Shown in pieces: positions 10,417 through 42,281 of a stretch of DNA of 42,281 bases (positions within the stretch are counted from its first letter, which is position 1; every line of letters begins with the position of its first letter). The position numbers and the translations under genes were made by a program. The notes under the pieces are model-generated. The model worked only from the letters and a program-made list of their open reading frames with translations. It was not told the DNA's origin and made no database searches. The DNA comes from an uncultured Monoglobus sp. (lineage in GTDB: Bacteria; Bacillota; Clostridia; Monoglobales; Monoglobaceae): positions 1-42,281 of the forward strand of contig CANRHV010000018.1 in NCBI GenBank assembly GCA_947630505.1. The letters run 5' to 3'.

Positions 10417-11165
10417 GCTTCCGCCTCCCTTATAATTGTATGCTTTCTGAATTTATTATTTGCGGGCTCGTCGGTAATAATTATTCCCTCGCTCAGATCG
10501 CCGAAGGTCACCGAGCAGGTCAGATCAAATTTGCTGTGGTCGGCGAGAACATAGTTTCTGCGTCCCCGTTTCATGGCCTCGGCCTTGACGGCCGCCTCCT
10601 CCGCGTCGGGCGTCGTGTAGCCGCTCTCGACCGATATGCCGTTGGTTCCGATAAAAGTCTTGGTAAAATTGTATTTCCGAAGATTGGCGACGGTCTCGGT
10701 CCCCACCACGGCCTCGGTGGTGAGCTTTATCTGGCCGCCCATGATGTAGGCCTGAAAGCCCTTCTGTATCAGCTTTTTGGCATGGACGATCCCGTTTGTG
10801 ACAAATGTGGCTCTGAGGCCCTCGTTTAAATGGTCTATCATCGCCGAGGTGGTTGTTCCCGCGTCGATAAACACAAAATCGTCGTTGCCGATCAGCGCGG
10901 CCGCCGCCCTGCCTATCCTTTGTTTTTCCGCGGTGTTCATGGTCGATTTTGTCAGCACATCGTTCTCAAACACCGTATGCCGCCGCTTTATCGCCGTGGC
11001 TCCGCCATGGACCTTCCGAAGCCGCCCCATGCGGTCGAGAGCCGTCAAATCGCGGCGCACCGTGGATTCCGAAGTGTCGAGCATGTCGGCGAGGTCGCTG
11101 ACCGCCGCAGTGTTCCGCTCGGATAAATAATTGATTATCATATCGTGTCTTTCCTGAGTTAACAT
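10413..11165 (-). CDS. fruR: DeoR-family regulator of the fructose operon
   Basis: A 250-residue repressor-type protein: N-terminal winged helix-turn-helix (residues 1-57, with VSDLADMLDTSESTVRRDL), then a DeoR sensor domain with DAGTTTSAM for binding phosphosugars. In Bacillota such regulators control fruKA, and the position as first gene of fruR-fruK-fruA-ptsH-ptsI supports fructose 1-phosphate control. SD GGGAGG is 5 bases before ATG. Confidence 0.9.
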   Translation of the reverse strand: MLTQERHDMIINYLSERNTAAVSDLADMLDTSESTVRRDLTALDRMGRLRKVHGGATAIKRRHTVFENDVLTKSTMNTAEKQRIGRAAAALIGNDDFVFIDAGTTTSAMIDHLNEGLRATFVTNGIVHAKKLIQKGFQAYIMGGQIKLTTEAVVGTETVANLRKYNFTKTFIGTNGISVESGYTTPDAEEAAVKAEAMKRGRRNYVLADHSKFDLTCSVTFGDLSEGIIITDEPANNKFRKHTIIREAEA

Positions 11166-11231
11166 ATTGCCTCCCGAAAATTCATTTGCTTTACCGAAAA
11201 ATTTTGTTAAATATATCCTGTGTTTAAATCA

Positions 11232-11260
11232 ATAATATCATCATTTTCAGTCATTGTCAA
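11232..11260 (-). promoter_or_regulatory. Sigma-A promoter of the fru-pts operon
   Basis: On the - strand TTGACA (11260-11255), 17-bp spacer, TATTAT (11237-11232). It leaves a leader of about 60 nt before fruR. No further promoter was obvious inside the operon. Confidence 0.88.
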
Positions 11261-11356
11261 CCATTATTTTTCAAAAATTAGCGTTTTTGAGCAATAACAA
11301 TCAATTTTGTTTATTATATATAAATATTGTTGCTCGTTTTTGGCTATTTGTGCCAA

Positions 11357-11379
11357 TAAAAAAGCCGCCAAACAGCGGC
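11357..11379 (-). terminator. Weak terminator-like hairpin, - strand
   Basis: On the - strand GCCGC / GCGGC with a 6-nt loop, followed by TTTTTTATT. The transcript it would end is not obvious; it may stop read-through from the antitoxin RNA toward fruR. Confidence 0.35.
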
Positions 11380-11479
11380 CGTAAGATAATATCATAGAAT
11401 TACAAATCTGCCAAACAGGACAAAAATATAAATTCAGTCCGTCTTTATATAGTATGATTTTGTGTAACCGATTTTTAAC

Positions 11480-11508
11480 TTGAAAAAATTGTTGTATTGT
11501 GGTATTAT
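11480..11508 (+). promoter_or_regulatory. Promoter of type I toxin mRNA, copy 1
   Basis: TTGAAA (11480-11485), 17-bp spacer, TATTAT (11503-11508). The mRNA would have a leader of about 165 nt. The copy-2 promoter shares -10 TATTAT, the 17-bp spacing and the following ATATTTGGCAG. Confidence 0.8.
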
Positions 11509-11679
11509 ATATTTGGCAGCAAAACTGCAAGTGCGGAACATTTCGCGCGGAGAAACATTTAAGTATAAATAAAATATGCCTATCTAAAAGGCAGAGCAAA
11601 AACGTAAGGACGGTTGGCCGCTTCATTCCTTTCTAAACACTTAACTTCGTGTTTAAGACATAAAGAAAGGAGTGATGCC

Positions 11680-11766
11680 ATGATGAAAAATTATTTTTTC
11701 AGAATATTTGTTGCATTGCTTGTGATAATCGTATTGTTTGCGATTTTTGCACAGCCGGTGCAATAA
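11680..11766 (+). CDS. Probable type I toxin: 28-aa hydrophobic peptide, copy 1
   Basis: ATG 11680 to TAA 11766; begins MMKNYFFRIFVALL, continues as one membrane helix (I-I-V-L-F-A-I-F-A) and ends QPVQ. The SD AAAGGAGTGAT (11667-11677) is 7 bases upstream and very strong. Copy 2 at 24670-24756 has the same length and closely similar sequence, so the frame is conserved. In the leader, CATTCCTTTCT (11624-11634) is complementary to AGAAAGGAGTG (11664-11674), which would hide the SD, with an inner AAACAC/GTGTTT hairpin. An antisense RNA covers the 3' end. Short hydrophobic peptide, hidden SD and overlapping antisense RNA are hallmarks of type I toxins; I recognise no named family. Membrane toxicity is an inference. 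Confidence 0.72.
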   Translation: MMKNYFFRIFVALLVIIVLFAIFAQPVQ

Positions 11767-11863
11767 AAAATAACAACCGCCCAAGTTTAGTCGGCTGAGG
11801 CGGTTGCCATAAATACCGTTTGAAGCGGCCAAACCGTTTTTACGCTCTGCCGTTTCTCTTTCT
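11765..11863 (-). ncRNA. Probable antitoxin RNA, copy 1
   Basis: About 99 nt, from the promoter at 11870-11898 to the terminator CAACCGCC (11774-11781) / GGCGGTTG (11799-11806) plus T-rich tail, ending over the toxin stop codon. It is fully antisense to the toxin mRNA 3' region. Its 5' part is also a near-direct match to the toxin mRNA leader (11590-11625), so the toxin mRNA itself can pair its leader with its 3' tail. Confidence 0.7.
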
Positions 11864-11869
11864 ATAATC

Positions 11870-11898
11870 ATTATATATTATTATTTTTCTTTTGTCAA
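11870..11898 (-). promoter_or_regulatory. Promoter of antitoxin RNA, copy 1
   Basis: On the - strand TTGACA (11898-11893), 17-bp spacer, TATAAT (11875-11870): full consensus, stronger than the toxin promoter, as expected for an antitoxin RNA made in excess. Confidence 0.88.
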
Positions 11899-11967
11899 GT
11901 TTTTTATAACAAAAAGCGGAGCCGAGGCCCCGCCGCCGAATATAAACGACAATGTGTTTCATTCAAA

Positions 11968-12207
11968 TTATTCAAACAAATCATTTATATCGACATTCAA
12001 AAGTCTTGCGATAACAAATATCTCCCTATCGGTAGCGCGGCGGAACTGCCCCTCAAGCTTTGAATAGCTTGTGGGGTTCATGTCGATGCCCGCGGTTTGG
12101 ATACGCGCGATAAAGTCCTTTTGCTTTATCCCCCGTTCCTTGCGCATGCGCTCGATATTGCGGCCGACCATATTTTTGTTTCCGATTTCCAATTTTCTGG
12201 TTTTCAT
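11968..12207 (-). CDS. XRE-family helix-turn-helix regulator (79 aa)
   Basis: Small DNA-binding protein consisting essentially of one HTH_3 domain: IERMRKERGIKQKDFIARIQ, then a recognition helix region MNPTSYSKLEGQFRRATDREI and I-A-R-L-L-N-V-D-I-N-D-L-F-E. GGGAG lies 7 bases before ATG 12207. Its promoter overlaps a divergent strong promoter, which suggests autoregulation and control of the divergent transcript. No other domain; target unknown. Confidence 0.85.
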   Translation of the reverse strand: MKTRKLEIGNKNMVGRNIERMRKERGIKQKDFIARIQTAGIDMNPTSYSKLEGQFRRATDREIFVIARLLNVDINDLFE

Positions 12208-12242
12208 AATTTAACTCCCATTATTTATTACAATAAAATTTT

Positions 12243-12271
12243 ATTATAAAATATTCTTGACAAAATTCCAA
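12243..12271 (-). promoter_or_regulatory. Promoter of the XRE regulator
   Basis: On the - strand TTGGAA (12271-12266), 17-bp spacer, TATAAT (12248-12243). It overlaps the + strand promoter at 12257-12285, so the two cannot easily be occupied together. Confidence 0.65.
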
Positions 12272-12285
12272 AAAAGAATTATAAT
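12257..12285 (+). promoter_or_regulatory. Consensus promoter divergent from the XRE gene
   Basis: TTGACA (12257-12262), exactly 17 bases, TATAAT (12280-12285). An inverted repeat TTGAC-TTAG-GTCAA (12297-12310) lies just downstream of the predicted start and could be an operator. Confidence 0.88.
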
Positions 12286-12291
12286 ATATGA

Positions 12292-12366
12292 AAGACTTGA
12301 CTTAGGTCAATGGGTAATATGAAAAACTCAATAACAAAGCGGAGCGAAAAGCTCCGCTTTTTATTT
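12292..12366 (+). ncRNA. Candidate small RNA (about 75 nt) next to the XRE gene
   Basis: A full-consensus promoter and a strong terminator bracket about 75 nt with no convincing ORF: the only ATGs (12311, 12320) lack an SD and read through the terminator. It starts with the TTGAC/GTCAA hairpin. The terminator arm probably also insulates spoIIAA. Confidence 0.5.
12336..12366 (+). terminator. Intrinsic terminator
   Basis: AAAGCGGAGC (12336-12345) pairs with GCTCCGCTTT (12351-12360), 5-nt loop, then TTATTTT. Confidence 0.85.
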
Positions 12367-12374
12367 TGCCGAAA

Positions 12375-12386
12375 TTTGTCGACAAA
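12375..12386. promoter_or_regulatory. Spo0A-box-like palindrome upstream of spoIIAA
   Basis: TTTGTCGACAAA reads as TTTGTCGAC on both strands, one base from the Spo0A box TTTGTCRAA. It lies about 93 bases before the spoIIAA start. spoIIA operons are Spo0A-activated with sigma-H; I could not pick out a clear sigma-H promoter between here and 12479. Confidence 0.4.
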
Positions 12387-12478
12387 AAGTTTTTGGGAAA
12401 TAAAGGCGGAAATAAATTTATGTATAAAAAGACAGTGGGAAAACTAACCGAACCGACTAACGCAAAGGAGGAAAACAT

Positions 12479-12793
12479 ATGAACTGTGAAATTGAGCAGG
12501 TGGGCGGCGCGCTGGTGGTGAAGCTAAGCGGCGAGATAGACCAGCACTGCGCCGAGGAGCTGCGCAGCGACATAGACAGACAGCTTGACATAAAACATTC
12601 CGCGTCGCTGATCATCGACCTGGGCGGCGTGGATTTTATGGACAGCTCGGGTCTTGGCCTTATCATGGGCAGATACAGAAAAATGAAAGCGAGAGGCGGC
12701 AAAATACTTCTGGCGCGGCCGACGCCCGCCGTGGACAAGCTGCTGGAGCTGTCGGGCATCAACAAGCTCGTAGGCAGAGAGCGGACAAAATAA
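12479..12793 (+). CDS. spoIIAA: Anti-anti-sigma factor SpoIIAA
   Basis: A 104-residue STAS protein that, when unphosphorylated, frees SigF from SpoIIAB in the forespore. The phospho-acceptor loop [16 protein letters not shown] has Ser56/Ser57, matching the serine that SpoIIAB phosphorylates. SD AAAGGAGG lies 8 bases before ATG. First gene of spoIIAA-spoIIAB-sigF-spoVAC-spoVAD-spoVAE, 16 bases before spoIIAB. Confidence 0.95.
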
Positions 12794-18282: not shown

Positions 18283-18651
18283 CTGCCTCGCCCCTTGGGG
18301 AGAGGTGGATTTCCGCCAAAGGCGGAAAGACGGAGAGGGGTTAACATAGAGACTAGTAATTAGTAACTAGTAACTAGGAACCCCTCTCAGTCACCTACGG
18401 TGACAGCTCTCCCCAAGGGGCGAGCCAACCTTAAAGCGCGGGAAATACGCGAACGATTTTTGCCAAACTATCTCCGCGTATTCGCTATTCTCTAATTACT
18501 AATCACTACGTTGCCACCTCATCCGAGCGCCTTCGCACCTTCCCCTCAAGGGGAAGGCAAAAAAAGGCTTCCCCTTGAGGGAAAGCTGTCAAGCAGAGCT
18601 TGACTGATGAGGTGTTCTAATCACTATTCGCTAATATCTAATCACTACATT
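18283..18651. repeat. Mosaic repeat block between the sensor gene and SLH gene 1
   Basis: In order: palindrome type A (18288-18340, GCCCCTTGGGGAGAG), five 7-bp units TAGAGAC TAGTAAT TAGTAAC TAGTAAC TAGGAAC (18347-18381), type A inverted (about 18380-18427, inner stem GTCACC/GGTGAC), four to five units CTATTCT to CTACGTT (18485-18512), palindrome type B (18515-18614, CACCTCATC ... GATGAGGTG), and five units CTAATCA to CTACATT (18617-18651). The last unit touches the AGGAGG of the SLH gene. No gene is seen in this 430-base gap. Confidence 0.85.
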
Positions 18652-18666
18652 AGGAGGATGTTTTAT

Positions 18667-20367
18667 ATGAAAAATTACACTATATTTAGATTATTATTTT
18701 TATTGTTAATCACATTCAGCATTTCACTTTGCTGTTTGGCGGTATCGGCGGCGGAGACGCCGGTCACGGGAGACATGCTCAAGCAAATGGCGGAAAGCCG
18801 AAAACTGAGCGCAAACCCCGACGCTGATCGGATACTGAACACCGATCACATCGAGCAAAATCCGGACCTGAGCCTCAATGCGTCAAACGCCGAGCCCAAA
18901 AAAATCGGCGATTATATTGATCCCGACAAGGCCTTTTGTATGTATTTAAGGCCCGCGCAGGGTCTCACGCGGTATTTCAGAGAAGGCGCGGGGAGCGCCG
19001 AATCGTTCGCCGAGGCGTTTGAGCTGTTCAAAAATTCCGAATACTGCGATACGGAATACTGGCAGCCGGTCGAACCGTTTTATGACGCGAACGGGGAGCT
19101 TATGAACGCGCGTTGCGTTCAGGCGCAGTACGATCTGGGCAGGCTCAATAATGTTACGCTCGGGACCGCGGCCGACTTTTGGTTCGAGGACAAGTACTAC
19201 GACTTGGCGGCTGAGGCCGTAAACAAGAGCGGCATAAGCCGAATCGACGCGGTATACACCTTCGGAAGCGAGATCGCTCCGGACACCGACAAGGGCAGCT
19301 TTGTTATGCCCTGCGAGACCGTGAAGGACGGCTGCGCGGAGTATGCCGGATACGGCGAAAGGTCGCTTGAGGGCGGAGCGCTGTATACCGCTTTGGAGTA
19401 CGACAGCTTTTACAGTCTTATGTCGCAATATGCGGCGGTCGCCTCGGAGCTTTTCGAAAATCGCGTGAGAGAGGCGATAGGCGGCACAATGATATCGCAG
19501 GCGGAAATGGAAACGACGGCGCAAAGGCCGCCCGAGGACAGCGACAGCTTTTCGGAATATATCGGCACCGAGCCGCGCTACGCCGACATAACAAAGGCGC
19601 AGGCGGCGGTGACAAATCAGCTAAGCGACCTCGGCGTTATTACCGGAGAGGGCGGCATGTTCTATCCCGACAAAACCGTGACGCGGGCGGAGATCGCGGC
19701 TATGCTGTGCAGGCTGTTTGATATAGGGCTGGCCGAGGCAAGCGGATTTTCGGATGTTCCGAGCGGTCATTGGGCGGCGGGATATATAGGCGCTCTGGCC
19801 CAAAAGGGCGTGATAAGCGGACTCGGGAACGGCGTTTTCGGGCCCGACGAGGCTGTGACCTGCGAGCAGGCGGCAAAAATGATCGAAAACCTGCTTGGCT
19901 ACACCGACCATGCCGCGCTTACATACGGCGGCTATCCGCAGGGCAATGTCGTGATCGCCGCAATGCTGGGTCTGACCGACGATCTGGGCAATTTTGATTC
20001 GGGAGATCCGCTTTCCCGTATCGGCGCCGCGTGCATGTTGAGCCGCGCGCTTGACACCCACATACTCACCGAAAGCTATTATTTCGCAAGCCCCTCTTTA
20101 GGTTTCGGCTCGGCGGCCATGGCGGACGGGACCCTCGCCCAATACAGAGACGGCGCGGAGCTCAAGGGCGTTTACCACACCGGCGAAGCGGAGCGGGAGG
20201 CCTACGACGAGGCTGCGGCCGAGGAGCTTGATGAAAAATGCGGCGATATATTCCGCGAGTACCGCGATATCACGGGCAACGGCCCCGCGTCGGGCAAGCC
20301 GGGATTCGGCATCAGAAACATTTCCGCCCCGAGCAAGTCCAATCCCATCCCCAGAATAACAACGTAG
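18667..20367 (+). CDS. Secreted SLH-domain surface protein, paralogue 1
   Basis: 566 residues from ATG 18667 (AGGAGG 9 bases upstream). Signal peptide 1-29 ending V-S-A-A. An N-terminal domain of about 270 residues, shared with the next two genes and unknown to me, begins with a T-G-D-M-L-K-Q-M-A-E-S-R helix. SLH repeats follow: YADITKAQAAVTNQLSDLGV with TVTRAEIAAMLCRLF; FSDVPSGHWAAGYIGALAQK with TCEQAAKMIENLLGY; a degenerate third with SRIGAACMLSRALD. After the SLH block comes a charged helix and the tail NPIPRITT. SLH domains bind pyruvylated wall polymers, so it should sit on the cell surface. The stop TAG is the first unit of a repeat tract. Confidence 0.88.
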   Translation: MKNYTIFRLLFLLLITFSISLCCLAVSAAETPVTGDMLKQMAESRKLSANPDADRILNTDHIEQNPDLSLNASNAEPKKIGDYIDPDKAFCMYLRPAQGLTRYFREGAGSAESFAEAFELFKNSEYCDTEYWQPVEPFYDANGELMNARCVQAQYDLGRLNNVTLGTAADFWFEDKYYDLAAEAVNKSGISRIDAVYTFGSEIAPDTDKGSFVMPCETVKDGCAEYAGYGERSLEGGALYTALEYDSFYSLMSQYAAVASELFENRVREAIGGTMISQAEMETTAQRPPEDSDSFSEYIGTEPRYADITKAQAAVTNQLSDLGVITGEGGMFYPDKTVTRAEIAAMLCRLFDIGLAEASGFSDVPSGHWAAGYIGALAQKGVISGLGNGVFGPDEAVTCEQAAKMIENLLGYTDHAALTYGGYPQGNVVIAAMLGLTDDLGNFDSGDPLSRIGAACMLSRALDTHILTESYYFASPSLGFGSAAMADGTLAQYRDGAELKGVYHTGEAEREAYDEAAAEELDEKCGDIFREYRDITGNGPASGKPGFGIRNISAPSKSNPIPRITT

Positions 20368-20687
20368 GGACTAGGAGATAGAGACTAGGACCTAGGTTCC
20401 CACCTCCGTCTGCGGCAAGCCGCAGCCATCTCCTCCCCGGCGTCCCCTACGACCATAGTGCGCAAAATGCCGTAGGGGCGAACGACCCCGGCCGCCCGCC
20501 TGCCTCGCCCCTTGGGGAGAGGTGGATTTCCGCCAACGGCGGAAAGACGGAGAGGGGTTTACCATGCGGCTCGGAATACAAACCCCTCTCAGTCTGCGGA
20601 CAAGCCGCAGCCAGCTCTCCCCAAGGGGCGAGCCTAATGTTTGCCGCCCGTCCTATTCGCTATTCGCTAATCGCTAATCACTATGTT
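20365..20687. repeat. Mosaic repeat block between SLH genes 1 and 2
   Basis: Five units TAGGGAC TAGGAGA TAGAGAC TAGGACC TAGGTTC (20365-20399) start with the stop codon of gene 1. Then a partial palindrome with CTGCGGCAAGCCGCAG, a separate hairpin CCCCTACG ... CGTAGGGG (about 20444-20479), type A in both orientations (about 20511-20560 and 20582-20634), and five units CTATTCG to CTATGTT (20653-20687) that run into the GGAGG of gene 2. No gene is seen. Confidence 0.85.
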
Positions 20688-20702
20688 GGAGGAATGATAT
20701 AT

Positions 20703-22463
20703 ATGAAAAAACTAAAAAAATTATTATCGGCAATTTTATCCGCAGCGGTGGCATTGACCGCGGTTTCGGGGCTTACTGCCTCGGCCGAGGGAAACATCAC
20801 CGGCGCGCAGCTCAGGGAGCTGGCGGAGAGCCGCATGCTCATCGACAGGCCCGACGCGAAGCAGGTACTTGACTGCGAGTATAACGAAATGCAACACTCA
20901 TTCACGCTTGAGGACTTAGACAAGATGGACCCGATTACGCGCGAATATGTCTATGACATCACCGAGGAGCCTCTCGCGCCCTTGAGGTTGGGCGATGTGC
21001 CGGGCATCGAGACGGCGTTCGGCTGCGGCCCGTCGGCGGAGGTCATTGCCGAGGGGCTCGCGTCCGGCAAGAGCTTTGACGAGATCATGAGCGAACATGA
21101 TAATCTGTACTATATCGTCACCGACGAAAAATGTTACGAGCTGTTTGATCCGCCCGAAGGCCCGTATACCGGCGCGCTCACCAAAGTGATAGACGTCAAT
21201 TATTACGCACCCGACAAAAACGGAGAACTCCGCGAAGCCGATAGTTCCGAAAGCAGCCTTCGGGTAAACTGCCACGACGCCGGCCTTTTTGACTTCAGGA
21301 ACGCGTATGACAGAATAGCCGACGCCTTGAACGACGCGGGCTGCAAGTCGATCGACGGGGCTTGTATCGAGCCCTCTATGGGAATAAGCGTTTCTGCCGA
21401 CATCGGCTGTCTGTATGTGCCCGTTCGGGATGTGAGCGGAAAAGAGGCCGAGTATTTAGGCGAAAACATCGGAAGCCTCAACGCTTTTGAGGCGTATAAA
21501 ATAGACGACTATGTAAAATTCATGGAGCTGCGCGACGAGGCGGCCGCGAAAGCGTCCGCGCTGCTCGGCGAGAAGCTGCGCGCAAAAATGCCCGGCTCGC
21601 TTGACACCGAAAGTTATAAACTAAATGCGACGTTCGGCGAGGCGACCGACTGCTTCTCGCAATATATCGGCACCGAGCCAAAGTATTCCGACATAACCGA
21701 CGGACAGGCGGCGGTCACCAATCAGCTGACCGATATGGGGATCGTCAACGGCGCGGACGGAATGTTTTATCCCGACAGCAACGTGACACGAGCGGAGAAC
21801 GCGGCGATGATATGCAGACTGCTGAAAATCGAGCCGAGCATAACAGACAGATTCGCCGACGTTCCCGATGACTATTGGGCGGCGGGATATATCGGCGCGC
21901 TTTCCGAACAAGGTCTGATCGACGGCACGAGTAACTCGCAGTTCTCACCCGAGGAAAGCGTGACATACGAGCAGGCGCTGAAAATCATTATAACCATGCT
22001 GGGCTACGCGGGAAACCAAACCGACTATTATGGCGGGTTCCCGACCGGATTTATAAAGCTCGGCCTCGATCTGGGCCTGATAGACGACTGCGGCAGCTTT
22101 GACTCGGGAACGCCCGTATCCAGGATACGCTTCGCCTGCATGATAAGCCGCGCGCTGGACACAAGGCTTTCAACAACGACTGTCGGGATCGGCGGCATGG
22201 GCGCCCAGATCTACGAGATAGCGGACGCCACGCTGTACGGATATTTAAACGGCGCCGAGCTGTGCGGCTCTCTGCTGCGCGGCAAAGTCGAAAAAGAAGC
22301 GTTTAAAGAGCAAAAATCAGCCGAGTACGCCGAAAAATGCGGCGATATCATCGACGAGTATAAAGAGATCACACAGTCAAACACCACGCTTGTCAAAGAG
22401 ATAAACGGGATCTACGTCGCGCCCCTGATTAAGAGCAACCCGATACCGAGGATAACAACGTAG
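20703..22463 (+). CDS. Secreted SLH-domain surface protein, paralogue 2
   Basis: 586 residues from ATG 20703 (GGAGG 10 bases upstream; the frame is open further upstream but that part is repeat DNA). Signal peptide MKKLKKLLSAILSAAVALTA to S-A-E (about 1-26). The unknown N-terminal domain starts ITGAQLRELAESRML. SLH block: YSDITDGQAAVTNQLTDMGI / NVTRAENAAMICRLL, FADVPDDYWAAGYIGALSEQ / TYEQALKIIITMLGY, and a weak third with SRIRFACMISRALD. The C-terminal helix and tail SNPIPRITT match paralogue 1. The stop TAG again lies inside a repeat tract. Confidence 0.88.
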   Translation: MKKLKKLLSAILSAAVALTAVSGLTASAEGNITGAQLRELAESRMLIDRPDAKQVLDCEYNEMQHSFTLEDLDKMDPITREYVYDITEEPLAPLRLGDVPGIETAFGCGPSAEVIAEGLASGKSFDEIMSEHDNLYYIVTDEKCYELFDPPEGPYTGALTKVIDVNYYAPDKNGELREADSSESSLRVNCHDAGLFDFRNAYDRIADALNDAGCKSIDGACIEPSMGISVSADIGCLYVPVRDVSGKEAEYLGENIGSLNAFEAYKIDDYVKFMELRDEAAAKASALLGEKLRAKMPGSLDTESYKLNATFGEATDCFSQYIGTEPKYSDITDGQAAVTNQLTDMGIVNGADGMFYPDSNVTRAENAAMICRLLKIEPSITDRFADVPDDYWAAGYIGALSEQGLIDGTSNSQFSPEESVTYEQALKIIITMLGYAGNQTDYYGGFPTGFIKLGLDLGLIDDCGSFDSGTPVSRIRFACMISRALDTRLSTTTVGIGGMGAQIYEIADATLYGYLNGAELCGSLLRGKVEKEAFKEQKSAEYAEKCGDIIDEYKEITQSNTTLVKEINGIYVAPLIKSNPIPRITT

Positions 22464-22791
22464 GGACTAGGGAATAGAGACTAGGAACTAGGTTCCCCTC
22501 TCAGTCGCCTTCGGCGACAGCATTAAGGAAGCTCTTGGTCAAAATTGCAAGCAATTTTGAAAGATAGCTTTGAACCCGCAAGCAAGCTTGCTGATTATCC
22601 CCAAGGGGCGAGCCTAGTCCCTAGATCCTATTTCCTAGTCCCTACGTTGCCACCTCATCCGAGCGCCTTCGGCGCCCACCTTCCCCTCAAGGGGAAGGCA
22701 ATAGAGGCTTCCCCTTAAGGGGAAGCTGTCAAGCGGAGCTTGACTGATGAGGTGTTCTAATCACTATTCGCTAATTTCTAATCACTATGTT
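22461..22791. repeat. Mosaic repeat block between SLH genes 2 and 3
   Basis: Five units TAGGGAC TAGGGAA TAGAGAC TAGGAAC TAGGTTC (22461-22495) beginning at the stop of gene 2; a type A element (about 22491-22613) whose stem-loop is expanded by nested hairpins (AAAATTGC/GCAATTTT; GCAAGC/GCTTGC); five units CTAGTCC to CTACGTT (22614-22648); type B (22651-22754); five units CTAATCA to CTATGTT (22757-22791) touching the GGAGG of gene 3. No gene is seen. Confidence 0.85.
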
Positions 22792-22806
22792 GGAGGAATT
22801 ATATAT

Positions 22807-24501
22807 ATGAAAAAACTAAAAAAACTATTATCGTTATTATTATCGGTTGCGATTACGTTTACCGTGGTTTCGGGGGTCACGGTCTCGGCGGCGGAGCGGG
22901 TGACCGCGAAGGATATAAAGGAGCTCGCCGAGGTCACTCTGCGCGAGGAGCCTGATTATAAAGCCATACTCGGCACGGCCTATATCCCCGAGGACGGGGA
23001 CATCACAAACACCGCGATTTACGGCGATGTTATCGATCCGAATTCCGCGTTTTTGGTTTACTCAAGCGCGGAGGCCTACACGCGGCTGATAGGAAACGGA
23101 GCCGACACGCTTGCGGAGGCGATCGAGCTCTGTGAAAACGGCGCGAACAGCGGCATCCGCTATGACAGCTCGGGCGACAGGTGCTACTATCAGCCTATGC
23201 CCGGCTACCCGAACTGCGCCGACTATCCGCAGCTCAGCGGCGAGGCGGCCTACAGGCTGCGAATAAGAGACGGAGAGCCCGTCGAGCTGGCGGCGCAGCC
23301 GCTCTACAACTTCGCGGCCGAATATCAGAAAGTCGCCGACGTCATGAACGAATACGGCTTGGAAAAGCCTGATGCGGTATATCTGTTTTCGGGGAGCGCG
23401 TCATTCGGAGGCCCGCTCAAATCGGCGTCATTCGGCATCTCGGTCAGCGGCGAGGAATACATTATCCCCGTCGGCCAAGACATTGAGGACAAGCAGGGCG
23501 ACTCGGGCCTTGAAGCCTATCGGCTCTATGACATGATTGACTATAACGCGTATTTTAACACCCACCGCGCGAGCGCCGAGAAAATACTCGAAAACGCTGA
23601 AAGCGAGCGCCTTGAGCGGCTGTCCGGGGTCCGCGCGCGCGAGGAGATCGAGGTGACGGCAAAAACAGTCGGCACAAACGACACCGACAGCTTTTCGAAA
23701 TACATCGGCACCGCGCCGAAATATTCCGACATAACCGCGGGTCAGGCGGCGGTGACGAACCAGCTGACCGAACTGGGCGTCATAAGCGGCTTTGACGGAA
23801 AGTTTTATCCGAACGACAATGTGACAAGAGCCGAGACCGCGGCCATGCTGTGCAGGCTGTTTGATATCAAAAGCGAGTCCGAGGGAACAGCCGCGTTTTC
23901 GGACGTGCCGCAGGATCACTGGGCGGCGGGCTGTATCGGCGCCCTCGCGCAAAAGGGCGTGATAAGCGGGCTCGGAAACGGCGCGTTCGGGCCGGAGCAA
24001 AGCGTGACCTATGAGCAGGTGTTCAAGATGATAGAGCAGCTTCTGGGCTACACCGGACAAATGCTCGTAAGCTGCGGCGGCACCTATCCCGAGGCCAACG
24101 TGCTGGCGGCCGTGAAACTGGATCTGACGAACGACCTTAAAAGCTATGACTCGGCCGACCCGATAACAAGGATCGAGCTGGCCTGCGTGCTGAGCCGCGC
24201 GCTCGACGCTCACACCGCGACCGTTGAAGTGTATATCGAAAACCTGACCGAGGGAGTTTATTACTACACCGACGCGACCCTGAGCGACATTAAATGCGGC
24301 GCGGAACCCGCCGGAAAGCTGTGCGAAAGCGACGACGAGTTTTGGGAGTACACCCGGGCGCTTAAGTCGGAATACGCCGAAAAGACGCAGGATATCATCG
24401 ACGCGGCGGTGTCGCGGACCGGCGGCATGGGCATTGATTTGGGCGGCGGCATAACGATACGCGCCAACCCCAAAGCCGATATCCCCAGGATCACAAGCTG
24501 A
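22807..24501 (+). CDS. Secreted SLH-domain surface protein, paralogue 3
   Basis: 564 residues from ATG 22807 (GGAGG upstream). Signal peptide MKKLKKLLSLLLSVAITFTV to V-S-A-A. Same plan: unknown N-terminal domain (about 27-295), SLH repeats YSDITAGQAAVTNQLTELGV / NVTRAETAAMLCRLF, FSDVPQDHWAAGCIGALAQK / TYEQVFKMIEQLLGY, third with TRIELACVLSRALD, charged helix, tail ADIPRITS. Unlike the first two, its stop is TGA and no 7-bp tract follows, so it marks the end of the cassette row. The three genes may be separately or jointly transcribed; no consensus promoter was found in the spacers. Confidence 0.88.
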   Translation: MKKLKKLLSLLLSVAITFTVVSGVTVSAAERVTAKDIKELAEVTLREEPDYKAILGTAYIPEDGDITNTAIYGDVIDPNSAFLVYSSAEAYTRLIGNGADTLAEAIELCENGANSGIRYDSSGDRCYYQPMPGYPNCADYPQLSGEAAYRLRIRDGEPVELAAQPLYNFAAEYQKVADVMNEYGLEKPDAVYLFSGSASFGGPLKSASFGISVSGEEYIIPVGQDIEDKQGDSGLEAYRLYDMIDYNAYFNTHRASAEKILENAESERLERLSGVRAREEIEVTAKTVGTNDTDSFSKYIGTAPKYSDITAGQAAVTNQLTELGVISGFDGKFYPNDNVTRAETAAMLCRLFDIKSESEGTAAFSDVPQDHWAAGCIGALAQKGVISGLGNGAFGPEQSVTYEQVFKMIEQLLGYTGQMLVSCGGTYPEANVLAAVKLDLTNDLKSYDSADPITRIELACVLSRALDAHTATVEVYIENLTEGVYYYTDATLSDIKCGAEPAGKLCESDDEFWEYTRALKSEYAEKTQDIIDAAVSRTGGMGIDLGGGITIRANPKADIPRITS

Positions 24502-35546: not shown

Positions 35547-36806
35547 ATGGCAAGCTACATCATAAACGGCCCGGCGAAAAACTTCGGGGGCAGCGTGAAA
35601 ATAAGCGGCTCGAAAAACGCGGCGCTGCCGATAATGGCGGCCGCCATGCTGAGCGGCGAAAAATGCGTTCTCAAAAATCTGCCGCGCCTGTCGGACACCG
35701 ACGCCATGGCGGAGATCATGACCTCCCTCGGCTGCTCGGTCGAGCGAAATGACGGCGTTCTTGAGATCACCGCGGACATAAAAAAACCGCGGCGCAAATG
35801 CGGCTATGAGCTGTTTTCCCGTCTGCGCGCGTCGGTGCTCATCATGGCGCCGCTGCTGGCGCGGTTCGGCAGGGCGAAGATACCCATGCCGGGCGGCTGC
35901 AAGATAGGAGCGCGGCCCATCGACCTGCACCTTAAAGGCTTTTCGGCGATGGGCGCAAAGATCAGACAGGGTCACGGCATGATCGACGCGTCGGCCCCTG
36001 ACGGACTTTCGGGCTGCCGGATCTATCTGGACTTCCCAAGCGTCGGCGCCACCGAGAACCTGATGACGGCCGCGTGCTTTGCAAAAGGCGCCACGGTGAT
36101 AACCAACGCAGCCAACGAGCCCGAGATAGTCGACCTGGCCGAATTTTTGAATAAAATGGGAGCCAAAGTCTCGGGCGCGGGCAGCGACACCGTGACGATC
36201 GAGGGCGTGAGCGAGCTCCGCGGCTGCGAGCATAAAATTATCCCCGACCGTATCGAGGCGGGGACGTTTCTTGTGTGCGCGGCGGGGCTCGGCGCGGGCG
36301 TCAGGCTTGAGGACGCGCGGCCCCCGCACCTGAAATCGCTGCTGGCAAAGCTGAGCGAGATGGGAACGGACTGCGAGGCGGGAGCCGACTTTATCGAGCT
36401 GCGCCCGTCGGGCAGACCCAAGACCGCGGACATAAAAACCATGCCGTATCCCGGCTTTCCAACCGACCTGCAGGCGCAGGCCACGGCGCTGCTGGCCACC
36501 TGCGAGGGCAGCAGCATGGTAGTCGAGACCATATTCGAGAACCGCTTCGCGCACATACCCGAACTGAGGCGCATGGGCGCGGGGATCAAGACCGAGGGCA
36601 ACGCCGCGTTTATAAACGGCGTGCGGCATCTGAGCGGCGCCGAGGTGAGCGCCACCGACCTGAGAGCCGGTGCCGCGCTGGTGACCGCGGCGCTCAAGGC
36701 GAGCGGCAAAAGCGTTATCCACAACATAGAGCACATCGAGCGGGGCTACGAAAACTTCACCGAAAAGCTCCGCGCCCTCGGCGCCGATATAGAGCGCCGC
36801 CCATAG
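35547..36806 (+). CDS. murA: UDP-N-acetylglucosamine 1-carboxyvinyltransferase
   Basis: First committed step of peptidoglycan synthesis: adds enolpyruvate from PEP to UDP-GlcNAc. From ATG 35547 it is 419 residues, the family length; the frame is open back to 35427 but that part is not MurA-like. Motifs: ISGSKNAALPIMAAAML, RASVLIMAPLLARFGRAKI, the catalytic Cys118 in MPGGCKIGARPIDLHLKGF (fosfomycin target), YPGFPTDLQAQATALL and ENRFAHIPELRRMGA. An AAGGCAGGA SD region precedes the start. Confidence 0.94.
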   Translation: MASYIINGPAKNFGGSVKISGSKNAALPIMAAAMLSGEKCVLKNLPRLSDTDAMAEIMTSLGCSVERNDGVLEITADIKKPRRKCGYELFSRLRASVLIMAPLLARFGRAKIPMPGGCKIGARPIDLHLKGFSAMGAKIRQGHGMIDASAPDGLSGCRIYLDFPSVGATENLMTAACFAKGATVITNAANEPEIVDLAEFLNKMGAKVSGAGSDTVTIEGVSELRGCEHKIIPDRIEAGTFLVCAAGLGAGVRLEDARPPHLKSLLAKLSEMGTDCEAGADFIELRPSGRPKTADIKTMPYPGFPTDLQAQATALLATCEGSSMVVETIFENRFAHIPELRRMGAGIKTEGNAAFINGVRHLSGAEVSATDLRAGAALVTAALKASGKSVIHNIEHIERGYENFTEKLRALGADIERRP

Positions 36807-36821
36807 CGGGCGAAATCAGGC

Positions 36822-37304
36822 CCGCCCCTTGAGGGGAAGCTGTCGGCGAAGCCGACTGATGAGGTGGCAACGTAGTGATTAGTAATTAGCGAATAGTGTC
36901 TACGCGGAGATAGCTTGGCAAAAAATTGTTCGCATGTTCCCGCGTCTCAAGATTGGCTCGCCCCTTGGGGAGAGCTGGCAACGTAGCGACTAGGAAATAG
37001 GGACTAGAAACTAGGAATATTTCATGGTTATATTAGGCTCGCCCCTTGGGGAGAGCTGTCGCCGAAGGCGACTGAGAGGGGTTAACGTAGGAACTAGGAA
37101 ATAGGATCTAGCGACTAGAAATATCTTTCGATGATATTCAATAGTTTCCGTCCTAGTCCCTAGTTACTAATCACTAGTACCTATGTTGACCCCTCTCCGC
37201 CCGCAAACGGGCACCTCTCCCCAAGGGGCGAGGCAGATATAGGCTTCCCCTTGAGGGGAAGCTGTCGGCGAAGCCGACTGATGAGGTGGCCTAGTCCCTA
37301 CGTT
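36822..37304. repeat. Large mosaic repeat block between murA and the giant surface protein
   Basis: Partial type B with stem GTCGGC-gaa-GCCGAC (to about 36868); units TAGTGAT to TAGTGTC (36873-36900); a partial type A core GGCTCGCCCCTTGGGGAGAG (about 36956-36976); five units TAGCGAC to TAGGAAT (36984-37018); type A with stem GTCGCC-gaa-GGCGAC (about 37035-37082); five units TAGGAAC to TAGAAAT (37088-37122); five units CTAGTCC to CTATGTT (37153-37187); type A inverted (about 37188-37232); partial type B (about 37234-37290); two units CTAGTCC CTACGTT (37291-37304). No gene is seen between 36807 and 37422. Confidence 0.85.
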
Positions 37305-37350
37305 GCCCTCCGCTTATCGGCATAATTCATTATAAAATATGGTTTATATA

Positions 37351-37379
37351 TTGACAATTCTTAATAAACAACTTATAAT
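37351..37379 (+). promoter_or_regulatory. Perfect sigma-A promoter of the giant surface protein
   Basis: TTGACA (37351-37356), 17-bp spacer, TATAAT (37374-37379), both hexamers exact. With the GGAGGT SD (37411-37416) this predicts strong expression. Confidence 0.9.
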
Positions 37380-37422
37380 ATAATATTAGAAATTATAAGT
37401 TTTTAACAATGGAGGTAATGTT

Positions 37423-40400
37423 ATGAAAGCTTCAAAATTCTTATCGCTGTTTCTGTGTATTGTGATGATAATGCCGATGACGGCGATCAATACATACGCG
37501 GAAATCACTTTGCAAGCCGACCCCAACACGGGCGCGTTTAACTTCGGTATTGATACCAATCCCGAAGAAGATCCAAACGCCAACTATCTGCAGAAAGAAT
37601 GCAAAGAAGACGGCAGCGTGGTTTATAAGGTAGTTTGGGAAGACGGCGCAGACATAGGCGCGGCTATTAATGAGCCCGCGATCGATACCGGCAACGATAT
37701 TTTTATTGACGGCGGTCACTTCGCTTACTTTGAGAATAACGGCAATGATGATAAGTTTACAGGTCCCAAATATACATGGGGCGGTTATAAGCCCGAGGGC
37801 GTTAAGGTAGAAGGCGCCATCTATCCGCGCGGTTCTTCCGTTGGTTCCACCGAGCCTGATATGCACGGTGCTTTCGGCGTTGTTATGCCCTTTACCGGCA
37901 GAGTTTCTCTCGTTGCCGGCAAAGGCGGCTCCACTACCGGTGAAACCAATCTCTACGCCCGCGTCGGTTACGACGGCGCGGAAATGCTTCTCGGCGACAT
38001 TAATGCTATGACCGACGATAATGGAGAATATGTTAACAGCTCATTTTCGTTCAACGTATATCCCCTCGATACCGTTATAGCCGAGGGTACTCGCGTATTC
38101 TTCTACGGCAGCGGCGCTTCCAATAACCGCATTCTGCTCTCGCAGGTTATAATAACACCCGCGGGCGCTGGCGAAACTCCCGCTCCGCATGTTACTGTTG
38201 CTCCCGATTTTACCTCTAAGGTTGTTCCCGCAGTTCAGGTCGGTAAGGAAGAAGATCCGGACTCCGTTACTTCTTCGGATGGTAAACTTATTGTTGATCC
38301 GCTTCCCGCCGGCACCGACAAGAACGGCACAGCTCAAACTTGGGCAGCTAAGAACGGTTTGATTTCCGCCGGCAACAATGCTACAGGCCCCGATTTCGTT
38401 AAGGCTTCCGTCGATCAGGCTCCCACTCAGGGTTCCGCTATTAAAATCAATGTTACCGAGCCGGGTATGGTTAAGGTTGTTACGGAGATAGGCGCTCCCA
38501 GCTCAAGCGGCGACAACAGACACGCTTACGTTCTCAAGTTCCCCGCGGGTCAGACCTACGGCGGCGAGCAGCTGCTCGACTTTGAGAACACCACAGGCGC
38601 TAAATACACCGATGATGAGAATATTAACTTTAGCGCTGAGCCCGGCTTCGACTACTATGTATATGTAGACGGTTCAAAGGCAGGCTTCGGCACTGTTGCA
38701 TTTACTCCCGACACTGCCGTTCCCGAGCAGCCCACACGAATTCCCGACATAACCGAACCTACTCAGGCTCCGGCTCGTCCAACCAAAGTTCCGACGATTC
38801 ATCACGTCTTTAACTTCGGTTTCGACACCGATCCCGCTGTTGACCCCAACGCCAACTATCTGCAGAGAGAAGACAAGAAAGACGGCAGCGTAGTTTACAA
38901 AGTGGTTTATGAAGACGGTACAGATACAGGCGAGGCCCTTAATGAGCCCGCTATTGATACCGACGCCGATATCATCATTGACGGCGGTCACTTCGCTTAT
39001 TTCGAAAACTCGGGTAATGACGACAAATTCACGGGCCCCAGAAACACCACCGACGGTTATAAGCCGGATGGCGTTAAGGTCGAGGGCGCCATCTATTCAC
39101 GCGGTTCCTCCGTTGGCGCTTCTGAAGCAGATGTTCACGGCGCTTTCGGCGTTGTTATGCCCTTTGACGGCAAAATTTCTCTCGTCGCGGGCAAAGGCGG
39201 CACAACCACCGCTGAAACCAACCTCTACGCCCGCATTGGTTATGACGGCGCGGAAACGCTACTCGGTGACATTAACGCCATGACTGACGATCAAGGCGAG
39301 CCGGTTACCGCCCCATTTTCATTCAACATTTATCCTCTCGATACCGTTATAGAAGAGGGCACACCCGTATTCTTATACGGCAGCGGCGCTTCCAATAACC
39401 GCATTCTGCTTTCGCAAGTCATAATCACACCCGAGAACGCGGCAGAGACTCCGGATCCTCACGCTACAGATGTTCCCGGCCTTACTTCAAAGGTCGTTCC
39501 CGTTGTTCAAACGGGAAGAGAATTTGATCCCGACGCTGTTACATCAGAAGACGGTAAGCTTACGGTTGATCCTATTATGGGCGGCTTCGATAGAAACGGC
39601 ACCGAAAGCTCTTGGTCTTTCAGAAATGGTCTCATTTCAGCGCTCAACAATCCATACGGTCCCGATTATGTCAAGCCTTCAGCCGATCAGGCTCCTATCC
39701 AGGGCTCAGCCATCAAGATCAACGTAACAGAGCCAGGCTCGGTTAACGTTGTTATGGAAATCGGCGCTCCCGGTTCCGGCGGCAACAAGCACGCTTACGT
39801 TCTCAAGTTCCCCGCGGGTCAGACCTACGGCGGCGAGCAGCTGCTCGACTTTGAAAATACAACGGGCGTTAAATACATTGATGATGAGAATATTAACTTT
39901 AGCGTTGATCCCGGCTTCGACTACTATGTATATGTAGACGGTTCAAAGGCGGGCTTTGGCACCGTTACATTTACTTCCGCAATAGCGAAACCTACTCAGG
40001 CTCCAGCTGAGACTCCAAAGCCCGTGGTGACACAAGCGCCTATCATTCCGACGGCAACGCCCGAGCGGCCGAGTGTTTTCGATAGCGCAAAGGGTCCATT
40101 TAACTTCGGTATGGACACCGACCCCGACTATGACCCCAACGCCAACTATCTGCAGAGAGAAGACAAAGAAGACGGCAGCGTAGTTTACAAAGTTGTTTAT
40201 GAAGACGGTTATGATACTACAGGTATTATTGACGAGCCCGCGATCGAAACTGACAATGATATCTTCGTTGACGGCGGTCACTTCGCATATTTCGAAAACG
40301 CGGGTAATGACGATAAATTCACAGGGCCCAGAAATAATTTCGACGGTTATAAGCCGGAAGGCGTTAAGGTTGAGGGCGCTATCTATCCGCGCGGCTCTTC

Positions 40401-42281
40401 GGTCGGTTTTTTCGAGCCCGATGTACACGGCGCTCTCGGCGTTGTTATGCCCTTTGACGGCAGAGTTTCTCTCGTTGCCGGCAAAGGCGGCGCCACAACA
40501 GGCAAGACCAATCTCTATGCCCGCGCGGGTTATGACGGAGATGAAATTCTTCTCGGCGATATTAACGCTATGACCGATCCTGAGGGTAATGCCGTTGAAC
40601 CCTATTCGTTCAACGTATATCCCCTTGATACCGTTATAGCCAAAGACACGCGCGTATTCTTCTACGGCCAAGGCGCTTCCAATAACCGTATTCTGCTTTC
40701 GCAGATTATTATAACACCCGCCGGCGCGGATGAAACTCCGGCGCCTCATGTTACTGCGACTCCGGATTTTACCTCTAAGGTTACTCCCGTTGTTCAGACA
40801 GAAAGAGAATTTGATCCCGACGCCGTTACCTCAGAAGACGGTAAGCTCACCGTTGATCCTATTATGGGCGGCTCAGATAAAAACGGCACTGTTGGCGCTT
40901 GGGCAACCAAGAACGGCCTCATTTCAGCCAACACCAACCCATCGGGTTCCGATTTTGCCAGAGTTTCCGCCGAGCAAGCTCCTATCCAGGGTTCCGCTAT
41001 CAAAATCAACGTAACAGAGGCAGGCATGGTTAACGTTGTTATGGAAATCGGCGCTCCCGGTTCCGCGGGCAACAAGCACGCTTACGTTCTAAGGTTCCCC
41101 GAGGGTCAGACCACCGGCGGCGAGTATGTGCTCGACTTCGAGAATATAAGGGGCGAGAAATATACCGATGATGAGAATATCAACTTTAGCGCAGAGCCCG
41201 GCTTCGACTACTATGTATATGTGGACAATTCAAAGGCCAGCTTCGGCACTGTTACGTTTACTCCCGAGAATCCCATTCAGACTCCCGCGACGGAACCGCC
41301 CGCGACAGACGTGCCCGCGACGGATGCGCCCGCGACGGATGCGCCCGCGACGGATGTACCCGTGACCGCGAATCCAACACCTACGCGCAGACCCACAGCT
41401 CCACCGGAAGCGACTCCCACAGTCACACCAACGGCGGCGCCCACAGCTACGCCGACGGCGATACCTACCGCGGTTCCGACGGACACGCCCGAGCCGACCA
41501 AAGTTCCCGTTGTTTTAAGCGGCATAAGGATCAAGTCAATGCCGAAAAATTTGACGGTTACCGAAGGAACCGCTCTTAACATCGACGGCTTGGTCGTTGA
41601 GGGAATATACAGCGACGGCACGTTTAAAGAGATCACCGACTACACGCTGAGCGGCTTTGACCCGTCAAAGCTCGGTATGCAGAGCGTGACGGTCGAGTAT
41701 AACGGATTTACCACAAGTTTTTCGGTGTACGTCGAGGCCAAGAAGCTGACGGGAATCGAGATAACCAAGAAGCCCGACAAGCGCTCGTACATACAGGGCG
41801 AGGCGCTTGACACAAGCGGCATGATCGTGAGCGCGATGTACAACAACGACACGAGCGAGGAGATCAAAGATTACACTGTTTCGGGCTATGACCCGAACTA
41901 TGCGGGCAGTCAGACGATAAGCGTTTCGTACGGCGGATTTTCGGCGGCATTCAGCGTGACGGTGTCGGCGAAAGAACAGACGAGCGGCACGGCCGAGACG
42001 CCGAAGATAAGCATATCGAGCTTTATCGGAGGCAAGACGGTGACGCTGACTTGCGCGACCGAGGACGCGGCGATATACTACACGCTTGACGGCAGCGCGC
42101 CGAGCGAAACCTCCACGCTCTACACCGAACCGATAAAATTGAGCGAGACAAAGACAATAAAGGCGATAGCCGTGAAGAGCGGAGCCGAAAACAGCAAGAT
42201 CGCAAGCGGAAAGATAACCGTGGCAGAGACCAAAGCTCCTAACGCCAGCCACATGTCCGGCAAGGTGGAGACGGGCACGGT
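37423..42281 (+). CDS. Giant secreted repeat protein with Ig-like and chitobiase-type C-terminal domains (partial, runs off window)
   Basis: Open from ATG 37423 to the window end, at least 1,619 residues. Signal peptide about 1-26 (MKASKFLSLFLCIVMIMPMT ... Y-A). Then three tandem repeats of about 424-430 residues, each with domain A (F-N-F-G-x-D-T-[ND] to I-L-L-S-Q-[VI]-I-I-T-P, about 210 residues) and domain B (T-S-K-V to F-G-T-V-x-F-T, about 165 residues), joined by P/T-rich linkers. A Thr/Pro stalk with P-A-T-D-[AV] repeats follows (41270-41515), then two bacterial Ig-like modules (G-I-x-I-x-x-x-P) to about 41960, then a chitobiase C-terminal-type module with YYTLDGSAPSETS (42000-42225). 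Domains A and B are not recognised. A wall anchor (SLH or other) would lie beyond the window. Confidence 0.9.
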   Translation, partial: MKASKFLSLFLCIVMIMPMTAINTYAEITLQADPNTGAFNFGIDTNPEEDPNANYLQKECKEDGSVVYKVVWEDGADIGAAINEPAIDTGNDIFIDGGHFAYFENNGNDDKFTGPKYTWGGYKPEGVKVEGAIYPRGSSVGSTEPDMHGAFGVVMPFTGRVSLVAGKGGSTTGETNLYARVGYDGAEMLLGDINAMTDDNGEYVNSSFSFNVYPLDTVIAEGTRVFFYGSGASNNRILLSQVIITPAGAGETPAPHVTVAPDFTSKVVPAVQVGKEEDPDSVTSSDGKLIVDPLPAGTDKNGTAQTWAAKNGLISAGNNATGPDFVKASVDQAPTQGSAIKINVTEPGMVKVVTEIGAPSSSGDNRHAYVLKFPAGQTYGGEQLLDFENTTGAKYTDDENINFSAEPGFDYYVYVDGSKAGFGTVAFTPDTAVPEQPTRIPDITEPTQAPARPTKVPTIHHVFNFGFDTDPAVDPNANYLQREDKKDGSVVYKVVYEDGTDTGEALNEPAIDTDADIIIDGGHFAYFENSGNDDKFTGPRNTTDGYKPDGVKVEGAIYSRGSSVGASEADVHGAFGVVMPFDGKISLVAGKGGTTTAETNLYARIGYDGAETLLGDINAMTDDQGEPVTAPFSFNIYPLDTVIEEGTPVFLYGSGASNNRILLSQVIITPENAAETPDPHATDVPGLTSKVVPVVQTGREFDPDAVTSEDGKLTVDPIMGGFDRNGTESSWSFRNGLISALNNPYGPDYVKPSADQAPIQGSAIKINVTEPGSVNVVMEIGAPGSGGNKHAYVLKFPAGQTYGGEQLLDFENTTGVKYIDDENINFSVDPGFDYYVYVDGSKAGFGTVTFTSAIAKPTQAPAETPKPVVTQAPIIPTATPERPSVFDSAKGPFNFGMDTDPDYDPNANYLQREDKEDGSVVYKVVYEDGYDTTGIIDEPAIETDNDIFVDGGHFAYFENAGNDDKFTGPRNNFDGYKPEGVKVEGAIYPRGSSVGFFEPDVHGALGVVMPFDGRVSLVAGKGGATTGKTNLYARAGYDGDEILLGDINAMTDPEGNAVEPYSFNVYPLDTVIAKDTRVFFYGQGASNNRILLSQIIITPAGADETPAPHVTATPDFTSKVTPVVQTEREFDPDAVTSEDGKLTVDPIMGGSDKNGTVGAWATKNGLISANTNPSGSDFARVSAEQAPIQGSAIKINVTEAGMVNVVMEIGAPGSAGNKHAYVLRFPEGQTTGGEYVLDFENIRGEKYTDDENINFSAEPGFDYYVYVDNSKASFGTVTFTPENPIQTPATEPPATDVPATDAPATDAPATDVPVTANPTPTRRPTAPPEATPTVTPTAAPTATPTAIPTAVPTDTPEPTKVPVVLSGIRIKSMPKNLTVTEGTALNIDGLVVEGIYSDGTFKEITDYTLSGFDPSKLGMQSVTVEYNGFTTSFSVYVEAKKLTGIEITKKPDKRSYIQGEALDTSGMIVSAMYNNDTSEEIKDYTVSGYDPNYAGSQTISVSYGGFSAAFSVTVSAKEQTSGTAETPKISISSFIGGKTVTLTCATEDAAIYYTLDGSAPSETSTLYTEPIKLSETKTIKAIAVKSGAENSKIASGKITVAETKAPNASHMSGKVETGT
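37537..41265 (+). repeat. Three in-frame tandem repeats of about 1.28 kb
   Basis: Anchor TTTAACTTCGGT occurs at 37537, 38809 and 40099, offsets 1272 and 1290 bp, both multiples of three. Long stretches are nearly identical between copies (for example the GGTTCAAAGGC and CTCGACTT regions near each domain B end), pointing to recent duplication or gene conversion. This may also cause length variation or assembly error. Confidence 0.9.

Follow-up and report, generated by a model that had tools for sequence, protein, structure and literature searches.

Codon usage switches at a module junction in a repeat-bearing surface protein gene of Monoglobus, a probable mosaic of S-layer-derived units and a common cassette

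In a large surface protein gene of an uncultured Monoglobus sp., codon usage changes abruptly where three tandem copies of a two-domain (A-B) unit give way to a C-terminal cassette that is common to several surface proteins of the same genome. We consider it probable (roughly 70%) that this switch reflects a mosaic origin, in which A-B units derived from an S-layer-type gene were joined to the common cassette. Computation established the homology of the parts, the position of the codon break at their junction and, in two other genes, islands of codon bias where modules were copied, while the direction of copying, from the SLH gene to the gene described here, is the one that sequence comparison suggests.

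Layout of the gene and its codon break

The stretch of DNA analysed (the window) is an entire contig (C18) of 42281 bases from a 2.70-Mb assembly in 119 contigs, and the protein is therefore cut (Table 1). As noticed in a preliminary description of this DNA, domains A and B are repeated three times; the pairwise protein identity among the three units amounts to 76-77%.

Table 1. Features of the gene and its surroundings (window coordinates)
Feature	Position	Strand	Remarks
Sigma-70-type promoter-like site TTGACA-17-TATAAT	37351..37379	+	12/12 consensus positions
GGAGG, likely ribosome-binding site before ATG	37411..37415	+	by eye from sequence
Coding sequence	37423..42281	+	ATG start; open for 1619 codons to contig end; 3' end missing
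Probable signal peptide MKASKFLSLFLCIVMIMPMTAINTYA	37423..37500	+	by eye; a closely similar leader starts a gene in genome G004
A-B unit 1	37528..38706	+	nearest to C76 unit in tree
Domain B of unit 1	38206..38709	+	AlphaFold2 model (pLDDT 90.6) and fold matches
A-B unit 2	38800..39975	+	sequence comparison of units
A-B unit 3	40090..41262	+	sequence comparison of units
Domain B of units 2 and 3	39481-39978 and 40765-41265	+	same domain as modelled B
15-base tandem array, Pro-Ala-Thr-Asp linker	41284..41356	+	codon break at array start (change point 41287)
First 240 residues of 558-residue common cassette	41563..42279	+	74% identity to C12 cassette residues 2-240
Big_3 (PF07523), second of two	41770..41964	+	best stretch residues 1450-1514; first from about 41563
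CHB_HEX_C_1 / Fn3_assoc (PF13290)	42028..42204	+	residues 1536-1594

The best change point in the codon usage of the reading frame has a log-likelihood ratio of 102, as compared with 31.5 on average and 51.1 at most when codons were shuffled within amino acids 1000 times, no shuffle reaching the observed break (0/1000); it should be noted that the shuffle test assumes independent codons, which tandem copies are not. The codon statistics near 41280, where by its own account the preliminary description could fail, thus display a strong break. The codons it listed largely hold as well: in the A-B repeats Val is mostly GTT (76/109) and Ala mostly GCT or GCC (73/108), but TCC, although the commonest Ser codon (18/69), does not make up most of the Ser codons; from 41281 on, GTG (11/24 of Val), GCG (23/35 of Ala) and ACG (27/54 of Thr) come to the fore. 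The coincidence of the switch with a domain border was also borne out, as the homology to other proteins encoded in this genome sets in near residue 1288 (position 41284, C87 alignment).

Upstream of the gene, a fully consensus promoter had been emphasised, and the match is indeed complete. However, the window contains five exact copies of TTGACA-17-TATAAT and eight with at most one mismatch, so that a perfect promoter does not single out this gene, and it was dropped as a mark of it. An opposite-strand promoter-like site (37329-37357, minus strand, 11/12) overlaps the gene promoter head to head. The noncoding DNA at 36955-37330 is made of palindromic repeats scattered through the genome: the region 37000-37330 has 112 matches in G000 (the genome itself), many of them nested or on both strands of one place, and one such dispersed repeat, with 99% identity, lies upstream of the C80 gene. 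The region 36700-37600 gave no match in Rfam. The gene with the similar leader in G004 likewise has an exact promoter site, which lies some 320 bases ahead of the gene and is separated from it by a terminator-like site, and no strong promoter site was found around the start of the C76 gene (L011, 2000-2520). Elsewhere in the window, the AT-rich region 11000-12500 (about 37% GC) carries divergent exact consensus promoters at 11870-11898 (minus strand) and 12257-12285 (plus strand), and three similar-looking secreted proteins of about 590 amino acids are encoded in tandem at 18607-24498, two of these ORF starts running back into apparent repeat DNA.

Relatives of the A-B unit and the history of its codon bias

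The A-B unit is present as one copy in an SLH (S-layer-type) protein encoded on contig C76 of the same genome, the SLH domains of which were verified by Pfam. The C76 unit and the window units are homologous over their full length, with 76-82% identity in protein and 78-82% in DNA (over 1171-1295 bases, the borders lying in linkers), and both genes have signal-peptide-like starts as well as Pro-Ala-Thr-Asp linkers after an A-B unit. In comparison to SLH S-layer-type proteins (PF00395), the window protein thus has the same module as C76, but in three units instead of one; its C-terminal part is different and no SLH domain was found in residues 1-1619, the readable part. A tree of 10 units places the window units together with the C76 unit and apart from those of other genomes, unit 1 being nearest to C76; this tree does not fully fix the direction of copying, and a G004 fragment, comprising part of domain A only, was included in a separate tree. 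The suggestion of the preliminary description that the repeat region might be of separate origin is supported, with the SLH gene on C76 as the likely source.

Copying or conversion between the SLH gene and the window gene appears to recur, as two lines of sequence comparison indicate. The A domain of the G004 gene with the similar leader (L069, at a contig end) is 94% identical in DNA to G004's own SLH-type gene and 75% identical to window unit 1. Longest-run tests furthermore gave an excess run of 20 polymorphic sites between unit 1 and C76 (0/5000), one of 12 sites between units 1 and 2 (p 0.0018), a p of 0.024 for units 2 and 3 and nothing significant for the other three pairs, these six tests being uncorrected and open to a contribution of uneven constraint along the unit.

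The codon index was based on an H set (20 ribosomal protein genes, EF-G and EF-Tu) and a background set of 31 other genes, the latter hand-chosen (20 window genes and 11 from other contigs) and including the secreted tandem genes at 18607-24498. Its mean is +0.151 for ribosomal proteins, +0.254 for EF-Tu and -0.157 for the background; in the window gene, the A-B repeats reach +0.151 and the C-terminal part -0.121. C76, with +0.290 over its readable length, has the highest index of 16 genes profiled. Single A-B units of seven genomes (C76 included) range from +0.198 to +0.280, and the window units lie lower (+0.178, +0.161 and +0.143). When the A-B codons were fitted with the usage of C76's other regions, the fit exceeded that with background usage by 231.8 log units and that with ribosomal usage by 41.9, while the cassette codons are best fitted by background usage. 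In the window units, most derived synonymous changes are downward: 31 down and 7 up for unit 2 against C76 and G002. The multi-reference polarity test favours downward change by construction, and a mirrored control was therefore run alongside, which was balanced (C76 against unit 2 and G002, 13 down and 14 up). Given the C76-like usage and the mostly downward changes with a balanced control, the A-B codon bias appears to have been inherited and to have decayed in part. Ile ATT does not fit, accounting for 50% in A-B as compared with 27% in C76's other regions and 17% in the H set. The bias has, moreover, survived roughly 20% divergence, which requires a measure of ongoing selection or recurrent conversion.

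Two further genes of the genome, C87 and C80, carry another module of C76 (within its nucleotides 1468-2011) with 85% and 81% identity, respectively. In C87 the index is +0.231 inside the module and -0.022 outside, in C80 +0.172 and -0.008 (0/5000 permutations in either case), and the best-scoring stretch of module length starts 4 (C87) and 18 (C80) codons from the module. Codon islands at copied modules in these genes imply that the switch marks a module junction rather than gene-specific optimisation.

The preliminary description had also proposed a very abundant protein whose repeats were optimised. According to this explanation, selection for translation would have raised the bias of the repeats, and the ordinary usage of the cassette would stem from conversion with its paralogs. 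The A-B index does equal that of the ribosomal protein genes, and the promoter is a consensus one, though shared in its exact form by four other sites in the window. However, the bias matches C76 better than ribosomal genes, falls short of that in C76 and in six other genomes' units, and has changed mostly downward where the mirrored control is balanced; the islands in C87 and C80, moreover, are confined within the body to the copied module. Optimisation is thus not needed to explain the repeats and we regard it as unlikely, high abundance of the protein being nevertheless possible.

An assembly chimera, in which the A-B array and the cassette of two genes were joined at the 15-base linker repeat (41284-41356), has to be weighed as well, since the short-read-type assembly is broken into 119 contigs, in four genes the cassette itself is interrupted by a contig end, and Pro-Ala-Thr-Asp linkers follow an A-B unit in both C76 and the window gene. 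Such a join is nonetheless improbable: the 15-base array units differ from one another (87% matches), unit 3 and C76 have a DNA identity of 79%, too low for the A-B array to be C76 put in the wrong place, the cassette copy of the window differs from the other copies by at least 8%, and C87 and C80 show a like combination of S-layer module and cassette in one frame.

A search of 40 genomes with the A-B unit gave 12 genomes with a match at E <= 0.001, 11 of which belong to the genus (the own genome included), the sole match outside it being a weak B-like one in G017, from another genus of the same family; scanning genome contigs with the A-B alignment yielded two confirmed loci, both in uncultured Monoglobus sp. 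MAGs. A horizontal origin of the repeat block from an organism with other codon usage, for which the unlikeness of the A-B codons to the genome background might be cited, was rejected as hardly credible, as the nearest relative (C76) lies in the same genome, the matches fall nearly all within the genus and the bias resembles that of native highly biased genes. Among the loci fetched, domain A was found in those of G000, G002, G003, G004, G006, G009 and G010. In G002, G003, G004, G006 and G010 it occurs as one copy in a protein with a C76-like SLH start, and these five genes lie near a UTP-glucose uridylyltransferase-like and/or an ABC-2-type transporter-like gene (names given by eye). The A-B match in G005 (L070, G005:C19) contains one TAG, the gene being seemingly split into two long ORFs; this may be an SLH-type gene that has been broken, or else an error of assembly.

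In the mosaic origin that we prefer, the three A-B units would derive from an SLH (S-layer-type) gene, would have been multiplied in tandem and partly exchanged by gene conversion, and the block would have been joined via a Pro/Thr/Ala linker to the C-terminal cassette of a surface protein family. The A-B part would thereby keep the eroded codon bias of a highly biased S-layer-type gene, next to a cassette of ordinary usage. The weakest points of this account are the lack of the 3' end and the fragmentation of the assembly.

The common cassette, its cohesin and a candidate anchor

A close cassette is common to eight surface protein genes of the genome (C18, C114, C80, C87, C24, C12, C47 and C14). 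Its codon index is below that of the body in 8/8 genes, the difference ranging from 0.054 to 0.255 and the body-cassette z from 2.0 (C12, where the difference is small) to 7.6 (window gene); for this comparison the cassette starts were hand-set from blastn borders, and the eight are the close-cassette genes among the 16 profiled, C17 with its distant cassette being excluded. In other genomes the cassette likewise lies below the body in 7/7 genes, very weakly so in G005:C11 (-0.006 versus -0.024), these seven having been chosen from a longer list as genes of which the contigs hold a large part. Where the body has a Pfam match, it is mostly of the leucine-rich-repeat or Big/GLUG type. In C24 (L015:1-573), the cut 5' part matches a stretch of the C32b pectate lyase gene (Pectate_lyase_4) with 94% identity, and judging from this one cassette cargo may be a pectate lyase.

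Complete cassettes comprise 558 amino acids and consist of two Big_3 domains, CHB_HEX_C, a second CHB_HEX_C, a cohesin and a tail. The cohesin (PF00963) is C-terminal and present in 4/4 cassette genes of G000 that reach the 3' end; the other four of the eight are cut at contig ends inside the cassette, the window contig ending before the cohesin position. By analogy with the complete relatives, the missing 3' end of the window gene would carry a cohesin. Another ending is possible, as in C17, where SLH domains come after a cassette that is less closely related (46% identity). The cut ends of C114 and C87 have 77 identical bases in common, and the window shares 47 with each of them; at the far end of C80 lie the final 19 residues of one more cassette gene, a tail that can, by elimination, probably be assigned to C18, C114 or C87.

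As a candidate anchor for such cohesins, one protein of G000 (C30, L040:3068-5500) combines a Pfam cohesin, three SLH domains and a dockerin. Its orthologs align in 11/11 other genomes of the genus with 41-87% identity, ten of them near full length and that of G005 over the last two thirds only; a dockerin match was obtained in 12/12 genomes and a cohesin match in 10/12 (not in G001 and G005), while the SLH region of the orthologs is covered by the alignments, the Pfam SLH count having been made for C30 alone. As regards a cellulosome, which would call for a scaffoldin with several tandem cohesins and for dockerins on enzymes, G000 has in total seven cohesin matches in seven genes, with four cassette genes cut and C32a showing two stretches, and four dockerins: one in a peptidase-M23/ricin-lectin protein, one together with SLH and cohesin, one together with cohesin and Big_2, and one alone. 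On C10 (L039:3152-6617), a gene for a 296-residue dockerin protein directly precedes that of an 842-residue SLH protein.

Once secreted, the window protein might bind through its cohesin to the dockerin of an SLH protein; that the cassette cohesins dock on the genus-wide SLH-cohesin-dockerin protein is a possibility which we rate somewhat short of even odds. Single cohesins on cargo proteins are known in Clostridium perfringens ATCC 13124, where, in the portion of the source considered here (PMC12997984), X82 cohesins likewise occur one per large secreted modular protein. In the complete cassette relatives of the window gene, the cohesin is C-terminal. While the same portion of the source describes pairwise cohesin-dockerin contacts between GH proteins (PMC12997984), the candidate partner here is a cell-wall dockerin protein with SLH domains. 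The differences from known single-cohesin cargo are therefore the dockerin candidate on an SLH protein and the sharing of S-layer-type modules.

Predicted role of domain B and meaning of the codon islands

An AlphaFold2 model of domain B, built from six sequences, reached a pLDDT of 90.6, and its best structural matches are carbohydrate-binding domains of a putative pectate lyase (8x8h, Z 10.9; 8wc1, Z 10.8), with an rmsd of 3.0-3.2 over 127-131 aligned residues and 15-16% identity. Many CBM-type sandwiches and unrelated proteins follow at Z 6.5-8.3. Foldseek placed 8wc1 at rank 1 (E 3.3e-5), but listed jelly rolls of the TNF family too, and the fold class alone therefore does not reveal a function. 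The predicted fold of B thus resembles that of the pectate lyase binding domain, yet a sequence match is not detectable, the domain B profile finding nothing better than E 0.13 among PDB sequences. Weak Pfam matches in B-like members were to FctA (2/12, best E 0.00031) and Polyoma_coat (2/12, best E 0.0048). For domain A, no Pfam family was found in seven members at E <= 5 and no credible PDB match in a whole-protein search. The structure search proposed for one A-B unit was carried out with domain B, the model of the entire unit (five sequences) having a pLDDT of 44.

Monoglobus is known for pectin degradation. The predicted fold of domain B is a beta-sandwich of carbohydrate-binding type, the ligand of which may be a plant glycan; the three B domains, together with A, would then bind plant glycan, and the window protein is best read as a putative multivalent glycan-binding surface protein, docked non-covalently. 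A broader proposal, for which we claim even less than for the docking step and which should be taken as tentative, is an inverted cohesin-dockerin display in Monoglobus: the SLH-cohesin-dockerin protein would hold many cohesin-tailed cargoes, the repertoire of which would be renewed by copying S-layer modules in front of the cassette, with the codon bias recording the source of the module.

Codon breaks within a gene can arise when modules are copied between genes that differ in expression, and general caution should therefore be taken before reading them as optimisation or horizontal transfer. With three cases in one genome, in each of which the other module-bearing gene is known, the decay of bias becomes measurable. 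The findings also point to a possible surface docking, with the cohesin on the cargo and the dockerin on an SLH anchor; the most interesting point, however, is the use of codon islands to mark where a module came from.
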